From NCBI GenBank assembly GCA_029946105.1, contig JAQSDW010000036.1:1-64000 (forward strand): DNA of 64,000 bases, read 5' to 3'. Each line of letters begins with the position of its first letter. The stretch's first letter is position 1. This stretch comes from Reyranella sp. GTDB lineage: Bacteria; Pseudomonadota; Alphaproteobacteria; Reyranellales; Reyranellaceae. Under the pieces are notes generated by a model. The model was given only the letters and a program-made list of their open reading frames with translations. It did not search any database and was not told where the DNA came from. Shown here one piece after another: positions 32,932 to 58,439 of the stretch. The position numbers and the translations under genes were made by a program.

Positions 32932-33723
32932 TCACGCCTTCCGCCGCGTCAGCCAGCCCGACAGAACCAATGCACAGGCAGCCACCATCACGACGACGGT
33001 GGCCAGCACGTTGATCTGCGGGTCGACGCCGAGGCGGACGCTGGAATAGACGCGCATCGGCAGGGTCTGGGACTGCGCTCCCGCGACGAACTGCGTCAGG
33101 ATCAGATCGTCCAGCGACAGAGTGAAGGCGAGCAGCCAGCCCGAGCCCACGGTCGGTGCGATCAGCGGCAGCGTTACCGTGCGAAACGTGACCCATGGCG
33201 TGGCGCCAAGATCCATCGCCGCCTCTTCAAGTGAACGGTCGAAATCGGCCAGCCGCGCCTGGACGATGATGGCGACGAACGAGATCGAAAAGGTCACGTG
33301 CGCCAGCGTGATGGTGAGGAAGCCGCGGTCCGGCCCGCCGAACAGGCGCTCCGAGCCGACGAACAGCAGCAACATGGAAATGCCCATCACCACTTCGGGC
33401 ATCACCATGGGCGCGATGACCAGGCTGCCGAACAGGCTGCGGCCGGGGAAGTTGCGCGCGCGGGCGAGCGCGTAGCCGGCGGCAAGGCCGATGACGGCCG
33501 CCAGGGTGGCGCTCACCGCCGCGATGCGGAGCGACAGCCAGGCCGCCCGCAGCATGGCCTCGTTGGCGAACAGCGCGCTCCACCATTTGGTCGAGAAGCC
33601 GCCCCACACCGTGACCATGCGCGACTCGTTGAACGAGTAGAACATCACCAGCGCGAGTGGCAGGTAGAGGAAGGCGTAGCCGAACCCCAGCATGGTGAAG
33701 GCGAAGCGGGCGCGCCCGATCAT
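32932..33723 (-). CDS. potC: ABC transporter permease, PotC-like (polyamine type)
   Basis: This 263-aa inner-membrane protein has about six hydrophobic segments and the EAA loop (LEEAAMDLGATPWVTFRTVTLPLIAP) typical of binding-protein-dependent permeases. It matches the second permease of spermidine/putrescine transporters. The ATG at 33723 starts the first membrane segment; the longer frame upstream overlaps potB. It is the last gene of the potF-A-B-C group, 10 bases after potB. The molybdoenzyme gene begins 30 bases further on. Confidence 0.88.
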   Translation of the reverse strand: MIGRARFAFTMLGFGYAFLYLPLALVMFYSFNESRMVTVWGGFSTKWWSALFANEAMLRAAWLSLRIAAVSATLAAVIGLAAGYALARARNFPGRSLFGSLVIAPMVMPEVVMGISMLLLFVGSERLFGGPDRGFLTITLAHVTFSISFVAIIVQARLADFDRSLEEAAMDLGATPWVTFRTVTLPLIAPTVGSGWLLAFTLSLDDLILTQFVAGAQSQTLPMRVYSSVRLGVDPQINVLATVVVMVAACALVLSGWLTRRKA

Positions 33724-33733
33724 GAGGCGGCCC

Positions 33734-34573
33734 TCACCGGTGCCGCTCCAGGCTGCGCGCCTGCTGGCGCTGGAACAGCGCGATGGGACCGACCAGCAGC
33801 ACCAGCAGGCAGATCGCCACCGCCGACGCGATCGGCCAGTCGGCATTGGTGAAGAACTCGTCCCACAGCACCTTGCCGATCATCAGTGTCTGGGTGCCGC
33901 CCAGCAGGTCGGGGATCACGAACTCACCGACGGCGGGGATGAACACCAGCAGGCAGCCGGCGACGACTCCGGGCAGCGACAGCGGCAGCGTGATGGTGAG
34001 GAAGGCCGCGATCGGTCGCGCGCCGAGATCGGCGGCGGCCTCGAGCAGGCCGGTGTCGAGCTTCTCCAGCGTGGCGTAGAGCGGCAGCACCATGAAGGGC
34101 AGGTACGCATAGACGATGCCGAGCAGGATCGCCCAGTCGGTGCCCAGGATCGTGGTGGGGTTGGCCGCGAGGCCGCTCCAGCGCAGGAACTGGTTCAGCA
34201 GGCCGTTCTCGTCGAGCAGGCCCATCCAGGCGTAGACCCGGATCAGGAACGAGGTCCAGAACGGCAGGACGACCAGCATCAGCAGCAACGGCCGCCGCTC
34301 GGGGGCCGCACGCGCGATGGCATAAGCCATGGGATAGCCCAGCAGCAGCGTCACGATCGTCGACGTAGCGGCGATGCGGAGCGAGGTGAGCCAGGCTGCG
34401 AGATAGAGATCGTCGGTGAAGAGCAGCGTGAAGTTTTTCAGGCTGAAGCCCAGCTCGACCGGCGGCACCGAGTCGGGCGCGTTGGTGCCGAGCGCAATCG
34501 CCAGCACCAGCGCGAACGGCAGCAGGAAGAAGACCCCGAGCCAGACGAAGGGAAGGGCGATGACCGCGCGCAT
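33734..34573 (-). CDS. potB: ABC transporter permease, PotB-like (polyamine type)
   Basis: This 279-aa permease begins MRAVIALPFVWLGVFFLLPF and has about six membrane segments. The EAA loop is LLEAAADLGARPIAAFLTITLPLSLP. It pairs with the PotC-like permease to form the channel of a polyamine-type importer. It sits 4 bases after potA. Related transporters also carry gamma-aminobutyrate or other cations, so the substrate is not certain. Confidence 0.9.
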   Translation of the reverse strand: MRAVIALPFVWLGVFFLLPFALVLAIALGTNAPDSVPPVELGFSLKNFTLLFTDDLYLAAWLTSLRIAATSTIVTLLLGYPMAYAIARAAPERRPLLLMLVVLPFWTSFLIRVYAWMGLLDENGLLNQFLRWSGLAANPTTILGTDWAILLGIVYAYLPFMVLPLYATLEKLDTGLLEAAADLGARPIAAFLTITLPLSLPGVVAGCLLVFIPAVGEFVIPDLLGGTQTLMIGKVLWDEFFTNADWPIASAVAICLLVLLVGPIALFQRQQARSLERHR

Positions 34574-34577
34574 GGTT

Positions 34578-35573
34578 CTATGTGTCGAGCGGATGGCCGG
34601 CGTCGGCGGCCCAGCCCAGCCAGATGGTCTCGCCGCGGCGGAACGAGCCGTCGGGTGTGCGGGCGATGTTTGCCGTGGCGACCATCATCACGCTGCCGTC
34701 ATCGAGCGCCACGCGGTGGAGCGAACGTCCGCCTTCGTAGGCGATATCGATGATTTGGCCAGCCACGGCATGGGCGGTGTCCGGCCGCGCTGTCGACAGC
34801 ACGATCTTTTCCGGCCGCAGCGCCAGCCAACGTCCCTCCGCCGCGGGCAGGATGTTGGCGATGCCGATGAAGTCGGCGACGAAGCGCGAGGCGGGGCGCT
34901 CGTAGACTTCGTGCGGGGAGCCCACCTGGACGATGCGGCCCGCGTCCATGACGGCCATCCGGCTTGCCATCGACATCGCTTCGTCCTGATCGTGCGTCAC
35001 CATGACGAAGGTGAGGCCGAGTTCTTCCTGCAGGCGCACCAGCTCGAAGCGCGTGCCCTCGCGCAGCTTGCGGTCGAGCGCGGCCAGCGGCTCGTCGAGC
35101 AGCAGCAGCTTGGGCCGCTTGACCAGCGCACGGGCGAGCGCCACGCGCTGGCGCTGGCCGCCCGAAAGCTGCGACGGCCGGCGTCGCGCGAGATCGGCGA
35201 GGCGCACCTGCTCCAGCGCCTCGACGACACGGCGGTCTGTTTCGGCGCGCGCGACGCCCTCACGGCGCAGCCCATAGCCCACGTTGTCGGCCACGGTCAT
35301 GTGCGGGAAGAGGGCGTAGGACTGGAACATCATGTTGACCGGCCGCAGATGCGGCGGCACGCCGGTCATGTCCTGGCCGTCGATCAGCACGCGGCCCGCA
35401 TCGGGTGTCTCGAAGCCAGCCAGCATCCGCAGCAGGGTGGTCTTGCCGCAGCCGGAGCCGCCCAGCAGCGCGAACAGCTCGCCGCGCTCGATCTCGAGAT
35501 CGACCTCGTCAACGGCCACGACCGGACCGTAGCGCTTGGCGAGCCCTTCGATCCGGACGATGGGCTCGCTCAC
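34578..35573 (-). CDS. potA: ABC transporter ATP-binding protein, PotA-like
   Basis: This 331-aa ATPase has Walker A GGSGCGKTT, the signature LSGGQRQRVALARAL, Walker B LLLLDEPLAALD and the switch His (VTHDQDEA). A C-terminal TOBE domain (LRPEKIVL) follows, as in spermidine/putrescine transporters. It energises the PotB/PotC-like channel. It starts at GTG, and its coding region follows the binding-protein gene by 25 bases. Confidence 0.92.
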   Translation of the reverse strand: MSEPIVRIEGLAKRYGPVVAVDEVDLEIERGELFALLGGSGCGKTTLLRMLAGFETPDAGRVLIDGQDMTGVPPHLRPVNMMFQSYALFPHMTVADNVGYGLRREGVARAETDRRVVEALEQVRLADLARRRPSQLSGGQRQRVALARALVKRPKLLLLDEPLAALDRKLREGTRFELVRLQEELGLTFVMVTHDQDEAMSMASRMAVMDAGRIVQVGSPHEVYERPASRFVADFIGIANILPAAEGRWLALRPEKIVLSTARPDTAHAVAGQIIDIAYEGGRSLHRVALDDGSVMMVATANIARTPDGSFRRGETIWLGWAADAGHPLDT

Positions 35574-35598
35574 GAGGATCTGCTCACGGGGCTTCCGC

Positions 35599-36684
35599 TC
35601 ACCGGCCCGTCTTCACGGTGGTCCACAGCCGCGTGCGCTCGCGTGTCTGGTCGGCCGTGCCGGCGGTGATGGTGTAGAACTTGGCGCGCACGTCGGCCGG
35701 CGGGTAGATCAGCGGGTTTTCCGAGATGTCCTTCGGCAACAGCGCGAAAGCGGCCTTGTTGCCGTTGGCATAACCGGTGAGCTCGCTCGACGCGGCGGCG
35801 ACCTTGGGCTCCAGCAGGAAGTCGAGGAAGCGGAGCGCATTGGCCGGGTTCGGCGCGTCCTTGGGGATCGCCGCGACGTCGATCCAGAGCAGCGAGCCCT
35901 CCTTGGGAATGGCATAGGCGATGTCCTGCTTGTCCTTGGCCTTGGCTGCGCGGTCGCGCGCCTGGAAGACGTCGCCGGAAAAGCCAAAGGCCAGGCAGAT
36001 GTTCCCGCCGGCCAGTGCGTTGATGTACTCCGACGAATGGAACTTGCGGATGAACGGCCGCACCGCCTTCACGACGTCGGCCGCCTTGGCGAGGTCCTCG
36101 GGCTTCTTCGAGTCTGGATCGAGGCCGAGATACTTCAGCGCCGCCGGCAGCACGTCGGTGGCGCTGTCGAGCATCATGACGCCGCAATCCTTGAACTTCG
36201 CGACGACCGCGGGATCGAAGACCATGCGCAGCGAATCGATCGGCGCGTCGGGCATGCGTTTCTTGATCTCGGCGACGTTGTAGCCGATGCCCGTGGTGCC
36301 CCACATCCACGGAATGGCGTGGACATTGCCGGGATCGTATTTGGCCAGAGCCGCCATGATCTCGGGGTCGAGGTTGCTCCAGTTTTTGAGCTTTGAGCGG
36401 CCGAGCGGCAGATAGATGCCGGCGGCGAGCTGGCGCACGAAGAAGGGCGAGGCCGTCGGCACCACGATGTCGTAGCCCGACTTGCCGCTCCTGAGCTTGG
36501 CATCGAGGATCTCGTTGGAATCGTAGGTCGTGTAGTTGACCTTGATTCCGCTGTCCTTCTCGAACGCCTTGAGCTGGTCCTCGGCGATATAGTCGGACCA
36601 GTTGTAGACATTGACGGAGCCCCCTTGCGCGAAAGCGGGTGAGAACGCGAGGGCGAACAGGGCGGCAAGAATGGGCAGACGCAT
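35599..36684 (-). CDS. potF: Polyamine-type periplasmic binding protein (PotF/PotD-like)
   Basis: This 361-aa protein has a signal peptide (residues 1-19, ending SPAFA) and then the family opening GGSVNVYNWSDYIAEDQL. YDSNEILDAKLRSGKSGYDIVVPT and IPWMWGTTGIGYN are typical of PotD/PotF. It would bind putrescine, spermidine or a related amine. The ATG at 36684 has GGAG six bases upstream; the upstream alternative is less likely. It is only 16 bases after livF, so the pot genes may be transcribed with the liv genes. Confidence 0.92.
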   Translation of the reverse strand: MRLPILAALFALAFSPAFAQGGSVNVYNWSDYIAEDQLKAFEKDSGIKVNYTTYDSNEILDAKLRSGKSGYDIVVPTASPFFVRQLAAGIYLPLGRSKLKNWSNLDPEIMAALAKYDPGNVHAIPWMWGTTGIGYNVAEIKKRMPDAPIDSLRMVFDPAVVAKFKDCGVMMLDSATDVLPAALKYLGLDPDSKKPEDLAKAADVVKAVRPFIRKFHSSEYINALAGGNICLAFGFSGDVFQARDRAAKAKDKQDIAYAIPKEGSLLWIDVAAIPKDAPNPANALRFLDFLLEPKVAAASSELTGYANGNKAAFALLPKDISENPLIYPPADVRAKFYTITAGTADQTRERTRLWTTVKTGR

Positions 36685-46720: not shown

Positions 46721-47095
46721 TCAGGCGCCGCCACGGAAAAGTGAGAAGCCCCACGGCGTCATCTTGAGCGGCAGGTGATAGTGCTGCGCCAGGTCTGCAA
46801 TGCCGAAGCGGTAGGGCACTGCTTCGAGGAAGGCAGGCGAGGGCACGGCCACGCCTTGCGCGCGATACCATTCGCCGACATGGAAGACCGCTTCGTACAT
46901 CCCGGTGGCCACGATGCCGTCGCCCTGCATCGTCGGATGGGCGAGGACGCCGCTGGCATTGATCTCGCCCGACGCCAGCCGCTTGCCGTCGGGCCCCTTG
47001 AGTTCTACGCGCAGCCCCGTCGCCGCGATGCCGCGCGAGACATCGAAGACGTGGATCGAGATGCCGCCGGGCTTGAGATGAACGCGGTCGCTCAT
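46721..47095 (-). CDS. uraH: 5-hydroxyisourate hydrolase, transthyretin-like (stand-alone)
   Basis: This 124-aa protein has the HIU hydrolase signatures: GGISIHVFDVSRGIAATGL at the start, and the C-terminal QHYHLPLKMTPWGFSLFRGG. The final YRGS tetrapeptide of the family appears as FRGG. It hydrolyses 5-hydroxyisourate in urate breakdown. A second copy, fused to OHCU decarboxylase, is at 59789. This copy lies 4 bases after a gene for an exported protein and may act on another related compound. Confidence 0.88.
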   Translation of the reverse strand: MSDRVHLKPGGISIHVFDVSRGIAATGLRVELKGPDGKRLASGEINASGVLAHPTMQGDGIVATGMYEAVFHVGEWYRAQGVAVPSPAFLEAVPYRFGIADLAQHYHLPLKMTPWGFSLFRGGA

Positions 47096-47099
47096 TCGC

Positions 47100-47555
47100 T
47101 CACCGTTTCTTGACGGAAAACGCCTTGGTTCCTGGCGCGCTCAAGGCAACGCCCTTGGCGGAAAAGAACTGCACGCTGAGCTCATAGTCTCCCGGCGGCA
47201 GGATGCAGTCCTGACCCAGCAGGGCCACCGCATTCCTGGAGCTCCATTCCTTCGTCGGCGCATTGAAATTGGCGGCCGGGGCAGAAGCACCTGTGTGCGC
47301 ACCGCATATTTTTGTGCCCCCCTTCTTGATGATCACCAAAATCCTGCTTTCCGCGACGGCCGGATCGACTCGTCCCGCGGTGCCCTTGGCCGTCGCCGCT
47401 ATGGTGAGCAAAGACGTGTCGGTGCCCCAATTTGCCGTGTTGGCGTCGGGGTTGGCGGGCAGGGTGATGTTGATGGCTGTGACAGGGTTGGTCTGCGCCA
47501 GCGCCGGCATCGCCACGGTGAACGGCAGCAGCAGGAGCATCCACATAGGCTTCAT
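47100..47555 (-). CDS. Predicted exported protein, unknown function
   Basis: This 151-aa protein has a signal peptide (residues 1-20, ending AMPALA). The rest is polar with beta-strand character and two Cys (KICGAH and QDCILPP) that could form a disulfide. The end, PPGDYELSVQFFSAKGVALS, resembles a small Ig-like domain, but no family can be named. It is translated 4 bases ahead of uraH, so the two are co-transcribed. Three 13-base repeats lie 56-88 bases upstream of its start. Confidence 0.6.
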   Translation of the reverse strand: MKPMWMLLLLPFTVAMPALAQTNPVTAINITLPANPDANTANWGTDTSLLTIAATAKGTAGRVDPAVAESRILVIIKKGGTKICGAHTGASAPAANFNAPTKEWSSRNAVALLGQDCILPPGDYELSVQFFSAKGVALSAPGTKAFSVKKR

Positions 47556-49507: not shown

Positions 49508-50926
<1,419 letters not shown>

Positions 50927-50935
50927 GGTTGCCTC

Positions 50936-52600
50936 CTATGCCCGCTTACGATCGTACTTGGATTGCTTGCCCGTGCCGTAGAGTTTCAGCGCACCCTCGG
51001 GGCCGGTCGCGTTGGGACGCTGGAAGATCCAGTTCTGCCAGGCCGAGAGCCGCGCGAAGATCTTGGTCTCCATCGTCTCCGGTCCGGCGAAGCGCAGGTT
51101 GGCTTCCATGCCGATCAGCCCGTCGGGCGAGAAGCCGGCACGTTCCTCGACGGCGAGACGAACTTCGTCTTCCCAGTCGATATCGTCGGGCGTGAAAGTG
51201 ACGAGGCCCTGCTCGTCGGCGGCCTGGGCGGCGAGCGCCTCGCCGATCTCTCCCTTCAGCGCGGCGACGTGCGGCGGATCGAACAGGAAGCGTGTACCGA
51301 GCCGCGTCAGGCCATTGCCCATGGGGTAGGGGCCGAAGTTCATGGATGTGAGGCGGAGCGTGGCCGCCGGCCGGTTGGAACCCTCGACCGTGCCGTCGAG
51401 CATGTAGGAGCGGTCGGCGGCCAGCACGATTTCCAGCAGCGTGCCGCTGAAGCACGAGCCGGGCTCGACCAGAGCGATCAGGCTGCGAGAGCTGACGTCG
51501 AGCCGCTTCAGCGTGCGCTTCCAGAACAGCACGATTTCTTGCACCAGCCAGTTTGACGCTTCCTTGGCGAGCAGCGCATCGTAGACCTCGACCAGCGCGC
51601 TATCACCCTGGCTCTGCAAGACCCAGGTGCCGATCTCGGTCTCGTTCAGCCGCAGATGCATCATGGCGTCGTCGAGGTCGCGGGCCAGTGCCAGCGGCCA
51701 GAAGGCGGCTCCCTGAGCATGGACCGCGGCAGCATCGGCAGGTGCTGTCTTCGACGGGCCCATGATGCGCAAACGCGCAGCCCGCTGTTCGCGATCGATC
51801 TCCACCGTGAGAGACGAGTAGCGGATCGTATCGCCTTCGATCTGGCGTTCGACCTGAGGCAAAGCGATGCCCTCGGCGTTCTTCGGCCGCGCCGACTTGG
51901 CGGCAGTCTCTTCGGCGATCTTCCTGGTTTCCTCGACGAGCTTGCTGGGCGGGATCAATTTGTCGACCAGTCGCCACTCCCGCGCGCGCTTGCCGCGCAG
52001 GCCCTCGGCGGTGGTGCAGAAGAAGTCGGCGTGGTCGCGCCGCACCATGCGCTTGTCGACGAGGCGCGTCAGTCCGCCGGTGCCGGGCAGAACGGCGAGC
52101 AGCGGCAGCTCGGGCAGTGACACGGCGCTGGAACCATCGTCGGCCAGCAGGATGTCCTCGCAGGCCAGCGCCAGTTCATAGCCGCCGCCGGCGGCGATGC
52201 CGTTGATCGAGCAGATGTAGCGCTGACCCGAATGGTGGCTGGCGTCCTCGATGGCAAGCCGCGTCTCGTTGGTGAACTTGCAGAAGTTCACCTTGTGGTC
52301 GTGTGTGCTGAGACCCAGCATGTTGATGTTGGCACCGGAGCAGAACACGCGATCGCGTTGCGAGCGGATCACCACCGCGCCGATCTCGGGATGCTCGAAG
52401 CGCAGGCGCTGTACGGCATCGGCCAACTCGATGTCGACGCCGAGATCGTAGGAATTGAGCTTCAGCTTGTAGCCGGGTCGGAGTCCCGCATCCTCGTTCA
52501 CGTCCATGGTGAGGTAGGCGACGCCATTTTCGAGGGCGAGCTTCCAGTGCCGGTAGCGCTCGGGCGTGGTGCGGAAGTCGATGAGGGTGGTCTCGGCCAT
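50936..52600 (-). CDS. boxC: 2,3-epoxybenzoyl-CoA dihydrolase BoxC
   Basis: This 554-aa crotonase-superfamily protein has the long, two-part layout of BoxC. The active-site-type segments include QRDRVFCSGANINMLGLSTH and NGIAAGGGYELALACEDILLAD with the oxyanion glycines, then PLLAVLPGTGGLTRLVDKR. A second crotonase-like half fills the rest. BoxC opens the epoxide ring to 3,4-dehydroadipyl-CoA semialdehyde and formate. AGGGA lies before the ATG. Its promoter, with a palindrome at 52617-52636, repeats that of the benzoate-CoA ligase operon. Confidence 0.95.
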   Translation of the reverse strand: MAETTLIDFRTTPERYRHWKLALENGVAYLTMDVNEDAGLRPGYKLKLNSYDLGVDIELADAVQRLRFEHPEIGAVVIRSQRDRVFCSGANINMLGLSTHDHKVNFCKFTNETRLAIEDASHHSGQRYICSINGIAAGGGYELALACEDILLADDGSSAVSLPELPLLAVLPGTGGLTRLVDKRMVRRDHADFFCTTAEGLRGKRAREWRLVDKLIPPSKLVEETRKIAEETAAKSARPKNAEGIALPQVERQIEGDTIRYSSLTVEIDREQRAARLRIMGPSKTAPADAAAVHAQGAAFWPLALARDLDDAMMHLRLNETEIGTWVLQSQGDSALVEVYDALLAKEASNWLVQEIVLFWKRTLKRLDVSSRSLIALVEPGSCFSGTLLEIVLAADRSYMLDGTVEGSNRPAATLRLTSMNFGPYPMGNGLTRLGTRFLFDPPHVAALKGEIGEALAAQAADEQGLVTFTPDDIDWEDEVRLAVEERAGFSPDGLIGMEANLRFAGPETMETKIFARLSAWQNWIFQRPNATGPEGALKLYGTGKQSKYDRKRA

Positions 52601-52677: not shown

Positions 52678-53097
52678 ATGGTTTCTGTACGCCCTGCCCA
52701 AGTCTCTGATCTACCAGCGATTTCCGCGCTGGATGCCCGCCTGACCGGGGCCTCCAAGCCGGATTACTGGCGTGACCGGCTGGCGCTCGGTCTTCATTTC
52801 CTGGTGGCCGAGACCGACAAGGGCGCCTTCGCGGGCTTCATCGCCGGCGAGGTGCGCGCCTGGGAATTCGGCCAGCCGCCGGCCGGCTGGGTGTTCGCCA
52901 TCCAGATCGATCCGAAGCTTCGCCTGAAAGGCGCCGGTAGCGCACTGTTCGAGGCGCTGGTGGCGCGCTTCAAGGCCGAGGGCGTGACGCGCGTGCGCAC
53001 CCTGGTCGATCGCAAGGACCATCTGATCCTTTCCTTCTTCCGCGCCCATGGCATGGTCGCGGGTCCGTCGCTGCAACTCGACAAGGAACTCTCATGA
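52678..53097 (+). CDS. GNAT-family N-acetyltransferase
   Basis: This 139-aa protein begins MVSVRPAQVSDLPAISALDA. The acetyl-CoA site is in GWVFAIQIDPKLRLKGAGSALFEALVARF (an RxxGxG/A-type loop), and the rest follows the GNAT fold to LVDRKDHLILSFFRAHGM. The substrate is unknown. It is divergent from boxC, and its start lies in the duplicated promoter block. No clear ribosome site precedes the ATG. Its last codons, KELS-stop, are the first unit of the 14-base repeats that lead into the Rrf2 gene. Confidence 0.85.
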   Translation: MVSVRPAQVSDLPAISALDARLTGASKPDYWRDRLALGLHFLVAETDKGAFAGFIAGEVRAWEFGQPPAGWVFAIQIDPKLRLKGAGSALFEALVARFKAEGVTRVRTLVDRKDHLILSFFRAHGMVAGPSLQLDKELS

Positions 53098-53140
53098 GGG
53101 AACTTTCATGAGGGAACTCTCATGAGGGAGCTGTCGTGAA
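53085..53140 (+). repeat. Four 14-bp repeats carrying overlapping MRELS mini-ORFs
   Basis: GGAACTCTCATGAG is repeated four times (53085, 53099, 53113, 53127), the last as GGAGCTGTCGTGAA. Each unit has a ribosome-site-like GAGGGA or AAGGA, a start codon and a stop. The ATGs at 53094, 53108 and 53122 each encode Met-Arg-Glu-Leu-Ser and then TGA. Each stop overlaps the next start (ATGA), and the last overlaps the GTG of the Rrf2 gene at 53136. This is a chain of coupled five-codon cistrons that arose by tandem duplication of the GNAT-Rrf2 junction. Confidence 0.85.
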
Positions 53141-53531
53141 GCTCCAGACGGCGACGCGGCTTGGCCTCTACGCCACGCTCGAACTGGCGCGCGATCCGGC
53201 GCAGACCCTGTCGTCGGCGGATCTCGCCGAGCGCTTCGGCGTGTCGACGCATCATCTCGCCAAGGTCCTGCGCACACTGGCGGCGGCCGGCCTCGTGCAT
53301 GCCGAGCGCGGCGCGTCGGGCGGCTACCGTTTCACCGGCAACCGCCGCCGCGTCACCCTGATGGATATCGTGGCCCTGTTCGAGCCGGCGCCGGGCAACC
53401 GCGCCAAGGAGCCGGGCGAGGACACGGAAATCGGCAGTGCCCTGCAGCGGGTGCTGACGGAGATCGACGAGATCGCCGAAGCGACGCTGCGTTCCGTCAG
53501 CCTGGAGACTATGCTGAAACAACCGATGTGA
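53136..53531 (+). CDS. Rrf2-family transcriptional regulator without cysteines
   Basis: This 131-aa protein has the Rrf2 winged helix (KLQTATRLGLYATLELARDP, then SADLAERFGVSTHHLAKVLRTLAAAGLV and the RGASGGYRF wing) and the dimerisation helix. IscR-like members ligate an iron-sulfur cluster with three Cys; this protein has no cysteine, so cluster sensing by that route is excluded. It starts at GTG, preceded by AGGGAG and a chain of mini-ORFs. A gene for an exported protein follows 10 bases later. Its target is not known. Confidence 0.9.
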   Translation: MKLQTATRLGLYATLELARDPAQTLSSADLAERFGVSTHHLAKVLRTLAAAGLVHAERGASGGYRFTGNRRRVTLMDIVALFEPAPGNRAKEPGEDTEIGSALQRVLTEIDEIAEATLRSVSLETMLKQPM

Positions 53532-55409: not shown

Positions 55410-56923
55410 GAAGATTTTCCCTGGCTGTTGGGATCGATGCTGAAGATGGCGACCGCATCGCTGCGGCCGCGTACGGCGACACTGCCCAGTGCTGCGAACG
55501 CGAACTCGCCATTGCAGGCCGTGCTGGTGCTTTCCGAAACGAGAATGCGCGTGCCGTGGTGCTTGTTCAACTCTTCCAGCCGCGATGCGAGGTTCACCGT
55601 GTCGCCCAGCAGGGTGAAGCTCATGCGCTGGCCGGCGCCGACCGAGCCGCCGATCACATGGCCGGTGCTGATGCCGATACGGGTGGCGAGCGCCACGCCG
55701 CTGGTACCGAAGGTGCGGCCGCCGACGGCGCGCTGGATGTCGATGGCCGCACGCACCGCGGCAGCTGCATGATCGGGGCAGGCGAGCGGCATGTTGAAGC
55801 TCGCGAACAGGCCATCGCCGATGAAGGTGTTGACCACGCCGCCGTGCGCCCGGATCGGCTCCAGCACCGTCTCAAGGTACTCGTTGAGTGCCTCGACCAG
55901 GCGGTCGGGCGACAGATACTCGGCGATGGTGGTGAAGCCCGCGATGTCGGTGAACAGGATCGTGGCCTCGCGCATCTCGCCCGCCAGAACGCCCTGGCCT
56001 TCGCGGTGCAGGATGGTCGAGGCGACGCTCTCGTCGACGTAGCGGCCGAAGGTCTCGCGGATGCGCTCGCGCTCACGCAGGCCCTCGACCATGTTGTTGA
56101 ACTGCCCGGTGAGTTCTCCGACCTCGTCGTTCGACGTAACCGGCACGCGCTCGCTCAAGTCACCCTGGGCGACCTTGCCCATGGCGCGTGACAGAATTCG
56201 GATCGGCCTCAGGAGAGAGCGGGTGATGAAATAAGAGGTAATCGCCATGCCCATGATGGCCACCCCGACGACGTTGGTGATCTCCAGGCGGAGGCGATCG
56301 CCCTCGTAGGAGAACAGGTCGACGATGATTGCCGCCAGCGGCGCGATCGAGATCACCGTCAGCGCGACGATCAGCTTGGTCCGGTAGCTGCCGAAGAACA
56401 GTTCGAGGTTGCGGCCTCGGTGCTGGAAGATGAAGGCGCAGAGCTTGGCCAGGTAGTCGCTGATGACGAAGTAGGTGTAGGTGAAATAGAAGACCGGCAG
56501 GACAATGCACAGCGTGATGACCTGGGCGACGGCCGGTCGCGGAATGCCGGTTAGCGACGGGTCGGACCAGAAATAGGTCGCTGTGAGGCGGAACGCGGTC
56601 AGGATCAGCACCAGGATCGCCACGTTCTGCGCCGTCAGCAGCGGCAGCTGGGTGATACGGCGCTGCGTGTCCTCGAAGCTCGTTGTGCCTTCGAGATAGC
56701 GCTGAATCGGCTGGAACAACCAGCGCGACAGGAAATAGTTGACGGCCAGCAGGAGCACGAGCCCCGCGCCTAGGGAGCGCGGCGCGAAGCTCCAGGCGCC
56801 CGTCAATCCGATGAAGACCAGGGTGAAGGCCATGTCGACCGCAACGCTCGACGTCGCCATCCAGAGATAACGCCGGCGAATCGCGGAGATCTCGTCCGGC
56901 GTGGCGGTCGTCGACACGCTCAT
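55406..56923 (-). CDS. Membrane-bound class III nucleotidyl cyclase with HAMP domain (second copy)
   Basis: This 505-aa protein has about six membrane segments (up to residue 240), a HAMP domain (about 237-290) and a cyclase domain. Metal Asp326 (FTDIAGFT) and Asp370 (FIGDGLF) are present, as are Asp441, Asn444 and Arg448 (GDTVNLASRLE). The Lys that usually recognises adenine is Thr366 (VNTFIGD). It probably makes a cyclic nucleotide at the inner membrane in response to an unknown signal. It follows its paralogue by 13 bases and is coupled to the acyl-CoA dehydrogenase start. Confidence 0.88.
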   Translation of the reverse strand: MSVSTTATPDEISAIRRRYLWMATSSVAVDMAFTLVFIGLTGAWSFAPRSLGAGLVLLLAVNYFLSRWLFQPIQRYLEGTTSFEDTQRRITQLPLLTAQNVAILVLILTAFRLTATYFWSDPSLTGIPRPAVAQVITLCIVLPVFYFTYTYFVISDYLAKLCAFIFQHRGRNLELFFGSYRTKLIVALTVISIAPLAAIIVDLFSYEGDRLRLEITNVVGVAIMGMAITSYFITRSLLRPIRILSRAMGKVAQGDLSERVPVTSNDEVGELTGQFNNMVEGLRERERIRETFGRYVDESVASTILHREGQGVLAGEMREATILFTDIAGFTTIAEYLSPDRLVEALNEYLETVLEPIRAHGGVVNTFIGDGLFASFNMPLACPDHAAAAVRAAIDIQRAVGGRTFGTSGVALATRIGISTGHVIGGSVGAGQRMSFTLLGDTVNLASRLEELNKHHGTRILVSESTSTACNGEFAFAALGSVAVRGRSDAVAIFSIDPNSQGKSS

Positions 56924-56936
56924 GATGTTGTCTTGC

Positions 56937-58439
56937 TCATGAAGTTGTCCCAACGCGATAGACCACGACATTGCCGCGGTGGCCGCGCACGTCGGTCTCG
57001 CCCAGGCGTTCACAGAAGTGCTCGGCGCCGGCTGCACGAACCGTGCTCTCGGTTGCCAGAATGACGGTATTGAACTGCTTGTTGAGTTGCTCGACCCTGG
57101 CCGCGACATTCACTGCGTCGCCCAGCAGCGTATAGTTCAAACGGTCGGCGGCACCGATCGTGACACCGATCACCGGGCCGGTGTTGAGGCCGATCCGGGT
57201 CCGCACCTCGACACCGGGCACGAGGCTGACGGCCGCGAGCGAGTGCTGGATCTCCACTGCTGCCCGAAGGGCGGCGCCGGCATGATCTTCGAGCGGCAGC
57301 GGCAGGTTGAAGCTGGCGAACAGGCCGTCGCCGATGAAGCTGTTGACGACGCCGCCGTGGCGCTGGATCACCGGCACCACTGTGCCGAGATAGACATTCA
57401 GTGCGCCGGCGACCTCGGTCGGCGTCATGCGCTCCGAAAGGCCGGTGAAGCCCTCGATGTCGGTGAACATCAGGGTCGCGTCGGCGGTGGTGTCGACGGC
57501 CCGGCCGGTATGTTCGTTGCCGTCGAGGATCGCCGTGGCGACGCTTTCACTCACGTACTTGCCGAAGGTGTCGCGCAGGTATTGCCGCTCCGCCAGACCC
57601 TCGACCATCCGGTTGAAGCCGCTTGCCGCATGACCGACCTCGTCATCCGAGGTCACCGGCAGGCGCACGCTGAAATCACCGTCGGCGACCTGCCGCATGC
57701 CGACGTCGAGACGCGCGATCGGTCGCGTCAACGCCCGCGATATCCAATAGTACATCAACACCGCACCGGTGGCGGACGTAATGATGTCGACGGTGGCTTC
57801 GCGCACAAGTCGTTCGCCTTCGTAGCTCAGGATGTCGGCGGCGATCAGGACCATGGTGGAGAAGGAGACGAACAGCAGCGCCAGCGCCACCTTGCGGCGA
57901 AAGCGGCCGTGGAAGACGGCGATGTTCACGCCGTGCGTCGTGAAGAGGAATTCGCAGAGCCGGTCGAGAAAAGCCGAGACGATGAAGAAGGTGAGGACGA
58001 CGTTGAAGCCGGTACCGACCGTCAGGTTCGCCACGATATCGGGCCAACCCGCTTTCTGCAGCGTGGCGCCGAACGTGATGTCGAGGCGATGCGACAGCAG
58101 TCGCAGACCGATCATCGGCATGTAGAAGAAGCCGACGACGAGGGCGGAATGGCGCGGCAGATTGCACAAAGGGTGTTCGATGTCGGCGTAGGCGAGGCGG
58201 CCCTGCACGAAGCCCACGACCGGTCGGATCAAATACCAGGCACCGGCACCCACGCCGGCCACCAGGAAGACCGCCGATGAGAGGATCGACGGCAGCAGGA
58301 CCGGCGCCGCATCGTTGAGGATCGCGTAGACGACGAGCGAGACGACGTCGATCAGGAACGGCACCGACATCGCCAGGAAATAGCGATGCACGAGGCGGGC
58401 GGGCGCCGCGAGCGACGCCACGTCGGTCGACGCTGTCAT
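56937..58439 (-). CDS. Membrane-bound class III nucleotidyl cyclase with HAMP domain (first copy)
   Basis: This 500-aa protein has a similar layout to the next gene: an N-terminal membrane domain (several segments up to residue 240), HAMP (about 237-290) and cyclase. Asp327 (MFTDIEGF) and Asp371 (FIGDGLF) bind metal. The DAVNVAARVEQL segment supplies the Asp, Asn and Arg. Ser367 (VNSFIGD) occupies the adenine-Lys position, as Thr does in the paralogue. The two probably arose by tandem duplication and may heterodimerise. A 60-base spacer separates it from the transglutaminase-like gene. Confidence 0.88.
   Translation of the reverse strand: MTASTDVASLAAPARLVHRYFLAMSVPFLIDVVSLVVYAILNDAAPVLLPSILSSAVFLVAGVGAGAWYLIRPVVGFVQGRLAYADIEHPLCNLPRHSALVVGFFYMPMIGLRLLSHRLDITFGATLQKAGWPDIVANLTVGTGFNVVLTFFIVSAFLDRLCEFLFTTHGVNIAVFHGRFRRKVALALLFVSFSTMVLIAADILSYEGERLVREATVDIITSATGAVLMYYWISRALTRPIARLDVGMRQVADGDFSVRLPVTSDDEVGHAASGFNRMVEGLAERQYLRDTFGKYVSESVATAILDGNEHTGRAVDTTADATLMFTDIEGFTGLSERMTPTEVAGALNVYLGTVVPVIQRHGGVVNSFIGDGLFASFNLPLPLEDHAGAALRAAVEIQHSLAAVSLVPGVEVRTRIGLNTGPVIGVTIGAADRLNYTLLGDAVNVAARVEQLNKQFNTVILATESTVRAAGAEHFCERLGETDVRGHRGNVVVYRVGTTS

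Follow-up and report, generated by a model that had tools for sequence, protein, structure and literature searches.

Tandem 14-nt copies of a stop/start junction between operon genes in Reyranella and their probable origin by local duplication

How does a chain of mini-cistrons come to lie between two neighbouring genes, and what might it do there? The question is raised by a 64,000-nucleotide stretch of a Reyranella sp. genome (contig JAQSDW010000036.1, assembly GCA_029946105.1; hereafter the window). Here, a GNAT acetyltransferase gene (52678-53097, + strand; Pfam Acetyltransf_1, E 4.4e-9) is followed by a gene for an Rrf2-family regulator (53136-53531, + strand; Pfam Rrf2 PF02082, E 6.6e-25) that begins with a GTG at 53136, leaving a gap of +38 nt between the GNAT stop and the Rrf2 start. 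The Rrf2 protein of the window contains no cysteine in its sequence, and the conserved cysteines of Fe-S cluster Rrf2 regulators are thus absent. Next to the locus, at 49508-52600 on the - strand, the only Pfam matches are PaaA_PaaC-like and enoyl-CoA hydratase, and we take these genes to resemble a benzoyl-CoA oxygenase of the BoxB/BoxC type.

The sequence from 53080 to 53140 reads GACAAGGAACTCTC ATGA GGGAACTTTC ATGA GGGAACTCTC ATGA GGGAGCTGTC GTGA AG, and the hand-over from GNAT to Rrf2 therein consists of four successive 4-nt stop/start overlaps. The GNAT frame ends ...DKELS-TGA, with its stop at 53095-53097 overlapping the start of mini-cistron 1 (53094-53111, + strand; ATG AGG GAA CTT TCA TGA). 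This is followed by mini-cistron 2 (53108-53125, + strand; ATG AGG GAA CTC TCA TGA) and mini-cistron 3 (53122-53139, + strand; ATG AGG GAG CTG TCG TGA), the last stop overlapping the Rrf2 GTG. All three encode MRELS, and in this the preliminary description was correct to the base. The underlying 14-nt tandem array (53085-53129, + strand; 3.2 copies, period 14, 93% match) has the top score, 83, among the 45 tandem repeats of the window. It looks like a repeated copy of GNAT's own junction, since the units match the GNAT 3' end (AAGGAACTCTCATGA).

Every start in the window array is preceded by a Shine-Dalgarno (SD)-like motif at a suitable spacing. An AGGGA lies before mini-cistron 2 (53097-53101, + strand) and recurs 14 and 28 nt downstream. 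The predicted duplexes with CCUCCU are -5.8 kcal/mol before mini-cistron 2, -5.8 before mini-cistron 3 and -6.3 before Rrf2, and the AAGGAA upstream of mini-cistron 1 gives -4.0 kcal/mol. Four obligatory re-initiations in a row, as had been proposed, are thus not demanded by the sequence, since each unit has its own SD-like AGGGA and fresh initiation is possible. A frameshift or a fusion to Rrf2 was ruled out, as all mini-ORF frames terminate ahead of Rrf2, and a functional peptide was likewise discarded, given that the encoded peptides differ between species (MRELS, VRSGA, VRDLA, MRRWA, MKALA). In addition, the unit contains a 7-bp inverted repeat (TCATGAG...CTCATGA, 53092-53125), through which RNA pairing between units is possible. 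In an RNA fold of the window junction the units do pair with each other, and that sequence is not common to other species.

We compared 60 distinct Reyranella junctions containing both GNAT and Rrf2. A plain 4-nt RTGA overlap, with the Rrf2 start inside the GNAT stop, is found in 28 of them and also in a genome of the same order used as outgroup (L092), and is therefore likely to be the ancestral state. Inserts, defined as gaps of at least 10 nt, are present in 25/60 junctions. Thirteen of these are a single 14-nt unit, three junctions have two units (L008, L055, L056) and the window has three, while seven further inserts have gaps of 19, 22, 25, 67, 70, 73 and 94 nt. In all 25 inserts the reading frame opened at the GNAT stop closes exactly on the Rrf2 start. 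This holds even at the junction with the 94-nt gap (L042), where a TCA to TGA change has put the GNAT stop one codon earlier and a TGATG overlap still joins the mini-ORF. Three junctions have a gap of 1 and a tiny closing ORF in each; the four junctions with a gap of 0 are non-closing, and no others among the 60 fail to close. The larger inserts (gaps of 67-94 nt) are REP-like palindromes whose frames stay open for 24 to 33 codons and end on the Rrf2 start, their identity as REP being a judgement by eye.

On the gene tree, the presence or absence of an insert switches at least 15 times and the gap length changes at least 24 times; the close relatives L003, L032 and L007 have zero units. A similar picture was obtained at a second junction, between an inositol-phosphatase-family gene and Sua5, where 0, 1, 2 or 3 units are found and all close. 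Most species have the plain overlap there, and five-codon units number one in G080, two in G063 and three in G018. In G023, one unit is followed by a large REP-like palindrome; a 56-codon ORF runs across it and closes on a start 3 nt ahead of the anchor residue. At both surveyed junctions, species without any unit form the most frequent class. REP-like palindromes placed exactly in the stop/start junction, with the frame open and closing as it is in MIRUs (see below), were noted in L023, L025, L087 and L090 at GNAT-Rrf2 and in L216 at phosphatase-Sua5. Repeat number varies between species, from 0 to 3 here and up to 5 elsewhere; in this variation, as in the overlapping mini-cistrons and the closure retained by all inserts, the preliminary description is supported.

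Closure of the 14-nt units is in itself uninformative as to selection: since 14 is 2 mod 3, an RTGA junction duplicated at that length cannot fail to close, and it is the inserts of other lengths that form the test. When changes by multiples of 14 nt are set aside, ~9 of the remaining ~11 length changes close against an expectation of 1/3 (binomial p ~0.001), a hand count that would shift with a different tree or a different splitting of nested changes. That these lengths, too, obey the frame rule is suggestive of selection. The earlier remark that each unit restores its own start is accordingly a consequence of unit length where the 14-nt units are concerned, but stands as a rule that other insert lengths also follow. 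The 14-nt length itself may be partly mutational. In many zero-unit species, an AAG codon of GNAT is found at a distance of 14 nt from one of Rrf2, a spacing across the two genes that is 2 mod 3 by construction, and such microhomology may favour duplications of this size. Retention of the RTGA at the GNAT stop is weak evidence, because the motif is inherited from the ancestral overlap. A fourfold-site control for the retained purine of the RTG start found 3/76 other columns to be equally purine-only and is weakly supportive.

We also found the unit well beyond these two gene pairs. Across 65 Reyranella genomes, the pattern RTGA-N10-RTGA-N10-RTGA has 272 matches vs 37 for the reversed control, and with the spacing set to 13, 16 or 17 there are about 60, 50 and 82 matches, respectively. 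The unit-15 pattern was dropped as a control since it is dominated by in-frame coding repeats, as was the unit-11 pattern, which is dominated by a recurrent motif and a dispersed family in G065. The G065 family, a GTGAGACATCGGTGAGACATGGGTGA-like motif spaced at 11 nt in about 25 places and abundant in that one genome only, may represent the end of a mobile element or else a binding site. Other spacings yielded a 16-nt array with 7 overlapping matches in one species (G003:C8:111316-111447), a six-unit 13-nt array that joins no pair of genes (L194), and a 17-nt-spaced chain, ATGACCGTCGCAGGCTCGTGATATTCTCC...ATGA, that recurs in many Reyranella species at what is apparently one conserved junction.

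We inspected 25 unit-14 arrays, comprising all of those in the window's genome outside the window and eleven from G064. Two long coding-like ORFs are joined exactly by 13/25 of them, compared with 1.9% of all RTGA sites and with 1/8 unit-13 arrays. The flanking ORFs are real genes, with Pfam matches in 19/20 and 10/10, and the pairs include APH/RNase H, ABC permease/permease, ApbA/DsbA, PALP/PfkB, HAD/ADH, OppC/OppD and DUF1348/GNAT; judged from these matches, they are ordinary operon partners. The unit sequences differ from junction to junction, and each matches its own flank, be it the end of the gene before it or the start of the gene after it; this speaks for duplication in place and against transposition. 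Within the window, two closing mini-ORFs occur in one ABC-transporter operon on the - strand (33720-33737 and 35570-35602): VSGSPVSRSS (29 nt, with a nested start and a 14-nt period) at the solute-binding protein/ATPase junction and VRAAS (14 nt) between two permeases. Further closing ORFs on that strand are MSKTTS (17 nt, 56920-56940), between two HAMP-cyclase genes, and the three-codon VSE (47092-47103), ahead of a gene of the transthyretin/HIUase family.

In 1.6 Mb of R. massiliensis, where gene calls were crude, single-unit closure was counted at 16/75 RTGA stops vs 31/384 other stops (p 0.0014), and against CTGA stops alone the excess has p 0.07. A single-contig R. massiliensis genome (L265) carries a two-unit array joining two real genes; at L265:1295-2398, one open frame matches both a cytidylyltransferase (NadD-like) and RsfS, an apparent fusion. 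Other Alphaproteobacteria, hand-picked for clear repeats and so informative on existence and not on frequency, include one with five units between two ABC permeases (L244) and a congener with two units at apparently the same junction (L260), along with arrays at GDSL/FIST, ABC/ABC and TauD/MR_MLE junctions.

The strongest new facts are that the unit recurs at many junctions and that all inserts close at the two surveyed junctions. For the anatomy, recurrence, turnover, closure rule and genome-wide excess that we observed, the reading that we prefer, at a probability of about 0.7, is tandem duplication of a termination-reinitiation junction whose copies are kept only when the stop/start hand-over re-forms. 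From the ancestral RTGA overlap, slippage would duplicate about 14 nt carrying an SD-like sequence, a start codon and the overlapping stop. A copy of this length, 2 mod 3, would turn the start that overlaps the GNAT stop into the opening of a five-codon ORF ending on the next start. Ribosomes terminating on GNAT would presumably still reach Rrf2, stepwise, with the mini-ORFs being translated on the way. With the other length classes, re-initiating ribosomes would overshoot the Rrf2 start or Rrf2 would gain an N-terminal extension, and such non-closing duplications would be removed by purifying selection. Short duplications probably arise often, the survivors being those that keep the hand-over, and unit number would drift up and down through further slippage. 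The unit would thus be a spacer that keeps genes coupled, its peptides lacking a function of their own, and the same process may act at many operon junctions in Reyranella and other Alphaproteobacteria. In Escherichia coli reporters, reinitiation is down 40-80% at +14 nt and nearly abolished at +38 nt (PMC10666635). In a closing chain, the ribosome would cross the 38-nt gap by translating, each step ending on a start codon, and fresh initiation at the SD-like motifs could operate alongside this relay.

Some of the same facts could be read otherwise. The units may be SD-bearing spacers that serve independent downstream initiation, with unused mini-ORFs and with closure reflecting no more than a bias of slippage towards 14 nt. 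The suitably spaced SD-like motif at all starts of the window array would fit, 14 nt is explicable by microhomology, and in E. coli gaps near +10 nt form a minor peak that has been read as SD-bearing (PMC10666635). We nevertheless hold this to be unlikely, given that closure extends to gaps of 19-94 nt and to REP-like inserts whose frames stay open for 24-56 codons, and that unit-13 and unit-16 arrays are far rarer, those of 13 nt seldom joining genes. Adaptive tuning, the proposal of the preliminary description, in which each unit lowers or buffers downstream translation and a selected copy number sets the ratio of the two proteins, could draw on the range of 0 to 5 units at intact gene pairs and on the ease with which slippage changes that number. 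It strikes us as doubtful indeed when turnover is rapid and scattered with the nearest relatives at zero, when zero units is the usual state at both surveyed junctions, when the genes at these junctions range widely in function (transporters, RNase H, Sua5, PolyA polymerase, NadD) and when the mini-ORF peptides are not conserved.

An assembly artefact or a chance repeat might be suspected in a short array from a genome in 242 contigs, and the preliminary description had itself named assembly error as a possibility. Yet the same structures occur in independent species and in single-contig genomes, with closure conserved and unit sequences diverged, and independently assembled species have 1-3 units at the same junction. 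For the arrays as a class these sequences already refute the artefact reading; at this single locus an assembly error is conceivable, and overall we give the artefact reading a very slight chance.

The closest known systems are the MIRU elements of mycobacteria, which insert at start codons and thereby bring an internal ORF into -4 nt coupling (PMC12548453), so that the array is not the wholly new kind of structure it was first taken for. At senX3-regX3, MIRU form tandem copies of 77 or 53 bp (PMC4213456), and both lengths are 2 mod 3. Common to the two are tandem, copy-variable repeats between co-directional genes, each ORF being coupled by a 4-nt stop/start overlap. Unlike MIRU, which are homologous, apparently mobile and tens of bp long, the Reyranella units are 14 nt, junction-specific and matched to the local flank. 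On the preferred reading, the array would be a small counterpart of the mycobacterial MIRUs that arose in place, and in the open-access literature we found no natural tandem mini-ORF or 14-nt array described that comes closer. The ancestral GNAT-Rrf2 overlap and each relay step resemble ATGA/GTGA termination-reinitiation junctions (PMC6728339, PMC10666635), except that in the array the junction occurs several times over, separated by mini-ORFs. As in bicistronic design, the nfORF and the axe-txe minigene (PMC12548453, PMC13255528, PMC8708949), where a productless short ORF affects translation of the next gene, the mini-ORFs precede a gene; those cases are engineered or single leaders, whereas the present ones are serial and lie inside natural operons. 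In axe-txe, moreover, a distance of 15 nt separates the mg2 stop from the txe start, with no overlap of the kind found in the relay. Palindromic inserts in the manner of REP-type elements occupy this stop/start point at some Reyranella junctions, but the window array is without such an element.

If local duplication is indeed the origin, 14-nt duplications would give MIRU-like structures an origin without a mobile element. If serial mini-ORFs carry ribosomes over gaps where little reinitiation would otherwise occur, then reinitiation after very short ORFs would be efficient in nature, and the evolution of gene junctions would obey a frame rule of which annotation takes no account. Because gene pairs with 0-5 units exist in nature, the efficiency of each reinitiation step can be measured directly. 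It is a bolder and rather unlikely proposition that slippage-prone 14-nt start/stop units serve Alphaproteobacteria as evolvable dials of expression at many junctions. Were it true, each 14-nt unit would be the smallest piece of DNA with an SD, a start and a stop, and operon stoichiometry could shift in single heritable steps with neither gene broken.
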